Source: Candidatus Blautia faecipullorum (GTDB lineage Bacteria; Bacillota; Clostridia; Lachnospirales; Lachnospiraceae). Taken from it: a stretch of 64,000 nucleotides of DNA. Location of the stretch: the NCBI GenBank assembly GCA_019115125.1, contig DXEG01000060.1:107501-171500 (forward strand), given 5' to 3'. Made by a program: the position numbers and the translations under genes. The notes under the pieces were generated by a model that had not been told where the DNA came from, did not search any database, and saw nothing but the letters and a program-made list of their open reading frames with translations. Shown piece after piece: positions 2,088 through 63,514 of the stretch (the first letter of the stretch is position 1; every line of letters starts with the position of its first letter).

Positions 2088-2149
2088 AATACATGCAAAA
2101 CATAATTTTGTCAATACCCATTAATAATTTTCTATTTTTTAGAGTAACA

Positions 2150-2304
2150 TTTCAGCCATACAGTGATTGGGAAGCATAAAACATGCCTGCATGTTTTTGC
2201 GAGCGGACATCTGTATAAGCTGAGCGCACGTTTATGAGTAAAACAGTGGTGTCAACCACAGTAAGCACACAGTGCGGTTTTACGAATGGCGCGGTCTGAT
2301 CTGT
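2150..2304 (+). repeat. dispersed structured inverted-repeat element, copy 1
   Basis: About 155 bp nearly identical to the element at 39409-39570, in the same orientation. It shows the same two arms: hairpin A (CATACAG...CTGTAT around AAACATGC/GCATGTTT) and arm B (GTAAAAC...GTTTTAC around a GTGGT/ACCAC hairpin and a GCAC/GTGC hairpin). The terminal inverted repeats are eroded here (TTCAGCC versus GTCTGATCTG). No open reading frame is carried. It looks like a MITE- or REP-like element; no family name can be assigned from sequence alone. Confidence 0.8.
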
Positions 2305-2779
2305 CACTTTTTATATACCGGCTTAATATACAAACTTATTTCCAATTTTATATTTTTTAATTGATAATTAGTTTAAAAAAGTCATTTTTTTATTCAGCTA
2401 TTCCATTGATTACTTTTACAGGAGAAAAAATCTGTTTTTATAAATATTTTTTCATCATTTTAATATAATGCACTTCTTAGTCGATATTTATTTTATAATA
2501 TCTGGATAAAAAGTAAGAGATCACACTGTACTTATATATAAACGGATAAATTAGTTATAAACAATAAATCACAAGAAAATAAATCGCATGATCTTCATTA
2601 TTCCAGAATATTTCGCATAATTATGAGAGCACAAAATAAAAAATCAATTCATCTGATATTTTTTTGATATCCCGGAGTCAGATTACTTAAACTATTTGTA
2701 AACAGGCCGATGTCAAGGATTATTTCCGGGATTACCGGATGTTTGGGAATATTCACCCCCGCTTATCCCGGACAGATTT
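2305..2779. other. AT-rich intergenic region without a recognisable gene
   Basis: No convincing coding frame is present on either strand. The stretch is strongly AT-rich up to about 2650, then contains CCGGGAT/ATCCCGG inverted segments. A possible promoter (TTGATA 2664-2669, 18 bp, TAAACT 2688-2693) could give a long leader for the downstream threonine aldolase gene. Confidence 0.5.
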
Positions 2780-33811: not shown

Positions 33812-33963
33812 CTTTTATTCAGAGTGGTGGAGATACAAAGGATCTGTGAAGCCACGGCAACCCCTCCGGTGAGGAAGGTGCCAACCTGAGCGAGTGATCG
33901 AACAATAAGAGGACTGATTGAAAGAGATATTCAGACAGTCCGATTATTCGGGCTGTTTTTTTA
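33812..33963 (+). ncRNA. SAM-I (S-box) riboswitch with terminator, controlling metK
   Basis: The conserved core is clear: AGAGTGGTGGAG, GAAGCCACGGCAACC and GGAAGGTGCCAACCTG, closed by P1 between CTTTTATT (33812-33819) and AATAAGAG (33904-33911). The expression platform is a terminator, ACAGTCCGA (33935-33943) with TCGGGCTGT and a T-run ending about 33963. GGACTG (33911-33916) can pair with CAGTCC (33936-33941) as the antiterminator when SAM is absent. High SAM thus turns off the SAM synthetase gene. Confidence 0.95.
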
Positions 33964-39397: not shown

Positions 39398-39408
39398 CAG
39401 TTTATAGG

Positions 39409-39570
39409 TATCAGTTCAGCCATACAGAGGCCGGGAAGCATAAAACATGCCTGCATGTTTTTGTGAGCGGACATCTGTATGAGCTGAGCGCCCGTTTATG
39501 AGTAAAACAGTGGCGTCAGCCACAGTAAGCACGCAGTGCGGTTTTACGAATGGCGCGGGCTGAACTGATA
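39409..39570 (+). repeat. dispersed structured inverted-repeat element, copy 2 (complete)
   Basis: 162 bp bounded by perfect 13-bp terminal inverted repeats (TATCAGTTCAGCC 39409-39421 and complement 39558-39570). Inside are hairpin A (CATACAG 39421-39427 with CTGTATG 39475-39481, inner AAACATGC/GCATGTTT) and arm B (GCGCC 39488-39492 with GGCGC; GTAAAAC 39502-39508 with GTTTTAC 39541-39547; inner GTGGC/GCCAC and GCAC/GTGC hairpins). The whole can fold as a cloverleaf. It carries no gene and lies between the binding protein and the first permease, 22 bp before its start codon. Confidence 0.85.
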
Positions 39571-39591
39571 TGTTTACAGGGAGGTAAAAGA

Positions 39592-63331: not shown

Positions 63332-63401
63332 TTAAATTTCTCTACTCTCTTTTTACAAGAGCGCACATGGTAGATAAAGAGGGTAATATAATTATTTGTA
63401 A

Positions 63402-63481
63402 CAGTTCAGCTCATACAGATGTGCACTCGCAAAAACATGCAAGCATGTTTTATGCTTCCCGTTTACTGTATAGCTGAACTG
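63402..63481 (-). repeat. dispersed structured inverted-repeat element, short inverted copy 3
   Basis: An 80-bp palindromic unit, bounded by CAGTTCAGC and GCTGAACTG, whose reverse complement matches the first half (hairpin A) of the element at 39409-39570, including GGGAAGCATAAAACATGC. It lacks arm B. It lies between plsC and tRNA-Ser. Confidence 0.8.
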
Positions 63482-63514
63482 AAATAATTATTTTAAATAA
63501 ATGTAAAAAACAGG

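Follow-up and report, generated by a model that had tools for sequence, protein, structure and literature searches.

A probable IS66-type MITE with a folded body distantly related to Rfam family RF01699 in Candidatus Blautia faecipullorum

What is the folded, gene-less sequence that lies just upstream of the start of a permease gene in Candidatus Blautia faecipullorum, and how has it come to be there? The window, i.e. the whole stretch of 64,000 nucleotides that was analysed, contains it at 39408-39571. An initial annotation had described two folded arms enclosed by perfect 13-bp terminal inverted repeats, and these were found in the sequence as claimed (39409-39421 and 39558-39570). The flanking duplication moves the borders of this copy one base outward, which gives a 14-bp repeat with a mismatched outermost base. 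The features of the element and of its further copies in the window are:

39408..39571, + strand: full element copy of 164 bp, consisting of terminal repeats, arm A and arm B
39408..39421, + strand: left terminal inverted repeat, GTATCAGTTCAGCC; family consensus GTAACAGTTCAGCC
39558..39571, - strand: right terminal inverted repeat
39400..39407, no strand: left target-site duplication, GTTTATAG
39572..39579, no strand: right target-site duplication, GTTTACAG, alike to GTTTATAG in 7/8 positions
39421..39481, + strand: arm A, a long hairpin whose pairing is kept while its sequence differs across the copies of different species
39489..39555, + strand: arm B, a stem ATGAG...CGAAT that encloses two hairpins and whose sequence is better conserved
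2144..2307, + strand: second full copy, with flanks TTTTTAGA/TTTTTATA
about 63398..63485, - strand: arm-A-only short copy, degraded at the end that is left in the orientation of the element

The near-full second copy that the annotation had placed at 2150-2304 is indeed present, its coordinates corrected to 2144-2307, and the compensatory pair reported between the two full copies (GTGGC-GTCA-GCCAC in the 39408 copy, GTGGT-GTCA-ACCAC in the 2144 copy) was confirmed. In being short and gene-less, with 14-bp inverted ends, the 164-bp element has the build of a MITE. The window also holds a SAM riboswitch (RF00162, 71.7 bits) at 33812-33911.

The element is dispersed. In its own genome (3.50 Mb, 67 contigs) blast returned 42 raw matches, 28 of them of at least 150 bases, and about 40 elements are left after removal of duplicates, namely one overlapping opposite-strand match and a pair on contig C19 that is probably a single interrupted copy. 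The search for further genome copies that had been proposed as a test was thus positive, and these copies support the earlier description of a dispersed element without a gene that would need help in trans. The 14-base end pattern, with at most one mismatch allowed, occurs 89 times in the same genome, versus 0 times for a reversed control. Among 145 genomes (a tally that, like all others over this set, counts the own genome too) blastn matched six, two of which (G005 and G029) on 31-35 bases only, and the covariance model R1, under strict filters, matched eight; G000, G043 and G066 hold at least 20 scored R1 matches each. An exact arm-B pattern recovered at least 98 stretches from public genome contigs, and among the matches listed 50 are titled Mediterraneibacter or [Ruminococcus] torques. 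The plasmids searched gave no match. The sole phage record that was matched, the unannotated 4.2-kb MT839594.1, has half an element (the arm B side) at its start (3-86, 90.5% identity). At G075:C3:77376-78020 (L294) four R1 matches stand in tandem, two of them also matched by the Rfam family RF01699.

The borders of the copies carry the mark of insertion. For 34 full copies from three genomes, the identity between the two flanks peaks only at 8 bp, at 0.614 versus 0.342 for mismatched pairs of flanks; a match of at least 7/8, with a boundary slop of up to 2 bases per side permitted, was found in 13/34 copies versus 19/1122 mismatched pairs. A wider set was drawn from other contigs and comprises 73 full-length rows out of 100 matches, after exclusion of 27 partial, truncated or odd-length rows. 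The 72 of these 73 that entered the duplication analysis again give a peak at 8 bp (0.592 versus 0.335), and a match of at least 7/8, here without slop, in 22/72 copies versus 35/5112. The two sets overlap in one row, as L200 of the wider set and L090 of the first are one and the same place. The element therefore has the fixed-length target-site duplication, of 8 bp, that is expected of a MITE. An empty site was found as well: in genome G007 (L276) the stretch that precedes the same permease gene runs on without interruption. Judged by eye, the element is absent from the permease site in all 11 relatives whose upstream region could be aligned (11/11), and R1 gave no match at E<=1 in the permease loci of these 11. 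Mobility of the element is well supported. In G043 a clear duplication has been kept in none of the five copies tested, and the copies of that genome may be old.

Several variants have lost an arm. Perfect 8-bp duplications flank L083 and L086 (arm A only) and L082 (arm B only), as well as L085, which is 133 bp long and has a different interior. No exact duplication was seen at the arm-loss variants L087 and L084. The arms look dispensable for insertion. In some copies an arm could have been lost after insertion; L085, however, has a different body. In L084 and L085 28-bp palindromes are present that equal two terminal repeats placed back to back, the one of L085 lying within its 133-bp element.

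Which enzyme could supply the help in trans? In the own genome an IS66-type transposase gene (L075) sits between the ends GTAACAGTTCAGCA and GTAACTATTCAGCC, of which the left is 1 base and the right 2 bases off the consensus. Its product scores 88.6 bits against PF03050 (DDE_Tnp_IS66), over the cut-off of 23.1, and 154.4 bits against the NCBIfam IS66 model NF033517, below the cut-off of 180. Four further contigs have the left 129-130 bases of L075, free of mismatches, at their edges, each time beside different neighbours. An IS66-type element of G023 (L252), with a transposase 67% identical to that of the own genome, is the complete insertion sequence of a relative: it has perfect GTAACAGTTCAGCC ends, identical to the 14-bp consensus of the family, and 8-bp repeats AAATTTTG. 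The IS66-type element L253 of G020 (transposase 53% identical) has ends GTAACAGTTCAGAT and 8-bp repeats CTTCACTT. Duplications of 8 bp, as expected for IS66, were thus found at L252 and L253, and none was seen flanking L075; a perfect sharing of ends with an autonomous element was found only for L252, in a genome other than that of the host. Two results count against a partner of this type: under strict filters R1 had no match in G020 and G023, which hold the closest transposase relatives, and a search of G043, G066, G075 and G076 for relatives of the transposase found none at E<=1e-40. Derivation of the element from non-coding parts of IS66-type elements was considered and rejected, as R1 finds nothing inside those examined; its single match at L075 belongs to a distinct copy that lies beyond the insertion sequence.

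Elements of the IS200/IS605 type are not known to produce a target duplication or to have terminal inverted repeats. The 8-bp duplications and inverted ends consequently reject such a partner, which had been one of two suggested. The other, a DDE enzyme with the same ends, is favoured: since the consensus ends match those of the IS66-type L252, with its 8-bp repeats, the likely partner is IS66-like. The ISBst12 group is not known to have accessory genes. This group appears as an IS66 subgroup in a listing in PMC8024623, and a table column, DR (bp), in PMC3281130 gives 8 for two captured IS66 elements of Paracoccus. The element shares terminal repeats of the form GTAACAGTTCAG.. and 8-bp duplications with the single-transposase elements of IS66, and differs from them in that it carries no gene. 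At the level of sequence, its assignment to the IS66 kind by ends and duplications is well supported, and by the same features a single-gene transposase of the IS66 family, acting in trans, would recognise the GTAACAGTTCAGCC ends and insert the element, making the 8-bp target duplication.

Why, then, would such a passenger be so strongly folded? The 39408 copy folds better than its shuffled versions (z -5.9, with 0/200 as good); folding of the 2144 copy is weaker (z -2.3, 5/200 as good). In the 34 copies, many of which are closely related rows, changes on both sides were found in 11/54 pairs versus 3.6 after shuffling and 4-7 for slid controls, so that the further covarying pairs that the annotation had recommended looking for do exist. 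A broader comparison used 47 representatives, i.e. 36/37 clusters of the wider set plus 11 rows hand-picked from A1, with similarity taken as the alignment score, gap penalties included, divided by length. Arm A has a mean pairwise similarity of 0.59 (lowest 0.33) and folds with z<-2 in 47/47 (40 mononucleotide shuffles each); its own halves pair at a mean of -28.3 kcal/mol, versus -15.1 kcal/mol for half-swapped chimeras. Arm B folds with z<-2 in 29/47 and has a similarity of 0.85, a conservation that is partly by construction because most of its loci were picked by the exact arm-B pattern. Mismatches of the G.T kind exceed those of the A.C kind in arm A (30 versus 12 distinct contexts, p 0.008), as counted in 102/107 sequences, with two that have no recognised loop and three that have no anchor excluded. 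The same ratio is 9:9 in arm B, 26:31 in the terminal repeats and 6:6 in arm A of RF01699 (47/50 sequences of that family). As the excess is confined to arm A of the element, action of an RNA is plausible, and selection on RNA is weakly shown.

Pairing could also be maintained without selection on the fold, by template switching (quasipalindrome correction), in which replication takes one hairpin half as the template for the other, so that both halves change in step. In line with such a process, matching changes at the two ends of the element are seen in some copies within the terminal repeats, a DNA site (columns 4/162: UA in 5/34 copies, GC in 1/34). Template-switch correction should, however, erase mismatches, and the purine mismatches of arm A that have lasted (A/G in 33 distinct contexts versus C/T in 2) count against it. 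Unpaired features persist as well: the majority of the 47 representatives keep the CUUG-like loop and the ATGAG motif. For the CGAAT side this is in part a product of the selection, since CGAAT belongs to the pattern by which most rows were picked. We consider template switching unlikely as the cause of the pairing, and infer that selection keeps a folded single strand in the copies that spread, RNA being rather more likely than DNA.

The annotation had proposed that the element tunes expression of the operon in which it lies, and in its broadest form this would make it a regulatory RNA of the host that has spread mainly through its usefulness to adjacent genes. Strong folding and the position just upstream of the permease start would fit this, as would the MITE-like repeats bcr1-bcr3 of Bacillus cereus, which PMC3446304 describes as high-copy, intergenic and often part of transcripts, and which by that description the present element resembles. 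The same paper, however, names only bcr3 as correlated with decay rate, the copies of the present element occupy varied contexts, and its absence from all 11 aligned relatives leaves the permease operon without it. The hairpin upstream is similar, by eye, in relatives that lack the element and is therefore not part of it. As for orientation, next to co-directional neighbours 9 are sense and 9 antisense in the 34-copy own/near set, and 8 sense and 27 antisense among 60 of the 73 copies of the wider set, as judged with a crude ORF finder and with shared ancestral insertions included. Orientation was set aside as evidence. Tuning of the operon thus found no support, and a spread through usefulness to neighbouring genes is very improbable compared with transposition of an IS66-type MITE. 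In another species the same intergenic region upstream of the permease (L283) contains a different short element, with ends GTAACTATTCAGC...GAACAGTTAC.

The body of the element has a distant counterpart in Rfam, RF01699 (Clostridiales-1), a family of gut bacteria, which is listed in Weinberg et al. 2010 (PMC2864571) as a probable RNA that is probably not cis-regulatory. Both have the same order of arms, first a CUUG-loop arm and then an ATGAG...CGAAT arm, and a closing terminal repeat; both occur as dispersed copies, and intermediates match both models. The element differs in its ends, in duplications of 8 bp instead of 5 bp, in a score below the gathering score, and in lacking the third arm of RF01699 (GGATTG...CAATCC), 34 positions of the model having no counterpart. 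Copies of the window family score 18.5-23.8 bits against RF01699, below the gathering score of 48; E was 0.002-0.059 in short searches and about 0.008 when the whole genome was searched. Equally high scores were obtained on L090 with several unrelated models of miRNA hairpins, with E down to 0.0027, and the direct scores alone therefore prove little.

The link rests instead on bridge elements. L303 matches RF01699 over its full length (46.9 bits, E 1.7e-7) as well as R1 (E 4.9e-8), and so does L304 (41.3 bits, E 5.4e-6, full length; R1 E 2.6e-7); the RF01699 scores of the bridges span 27.9-46.9 bits. In 7/10 loci scanned, RF01699 matched at E<=0.1 at the places matched by R1. The bridges of G030 are 192-bp elements with ends GTTACTATTCAC and 8-bp duplications, readable in 3/4 (two 8/8, one 7/8), and both models match the same places in them, as they do in an element of G076 with ends ..ACAGTTCAGCC. 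Conversely, R1 gave no match at E<=5 in 31 of 36 RF01699 loci, and in the other five its matches, two of them with E<0.1, all overlap the RF01699 element on the same strand.

The likeness might also have arisen by convergence, between MITEs of separate origin, each with a fold of several arms. The low direct scores, the performance of the miRNA models on one copy, the many RF01699 loci unmatched by R1 and the missing third arm all speak for it. Intermediates that match both models, over the full length of RF01699, the conserved order of the CUUG-loop and ATGAG...CGAAT arms, and the fact that all five R1 matches fall on the RF01699 element and its strand speak against it, and we regard convergence as quite unlikely. 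The kinship between the element and RF01699 has good support through the intermediates, and common descent would explain it.

RF01699 elements themselves look mobile. The loci L202-L274 have inverted ends TGAT...GGGTCAAAAG; among 52 loci examined, a script pattern found the distal end in 22, and in some of the other 30 it was recognised by eye. Flank identity peaks at 5 bases (0.818 versus 0.596), the duplications being mostly T...A, and the 5-bp duplication is exact in 12/22 rows, which correspond to 11/20 unique places (L213 equals L255, and L206 equals L265), versus 26/462 in the control. For these 5-bp elements the ends were found, and the search for an autonomous partner identified no transposon. 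RF01699 matches occur in 66/145 genomes, in 54 of them over the cut-off, and in 0/14 control genomes.

Taken together, the element is very probably a non-autonomous transposon of the IS66 kind, a MITE, with a body that would be a folded module distantly related to RF01699; the same module would also be carried by elements that have other ends, among them a class with 5-bp duplications. More tentatively, and in our estimate slightly short of probable, the RF01699 core may be a portable folded passenger that has repeatedly gained different transposon ends (those of the IS66 type, which go with 8-bp duplications and come in at least two forms, and those of another type, which go with 5-bp duplications), so that the fold and not the ends is inherited, and that benefits its carriers, perhaps as a transcript. 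Among the titles and abstracts searched, none reported mobility of RF01699 or a comparable IS66 MITE. The findings suggest that an Rfam 'sRNA' family consists, at least in large part, of mobile elements. Moreover, a similar core with different ends, together with arm-loss variants that have their own duplications, constitutes a natural experiment on the question why the body of a transposon keeps its fold.
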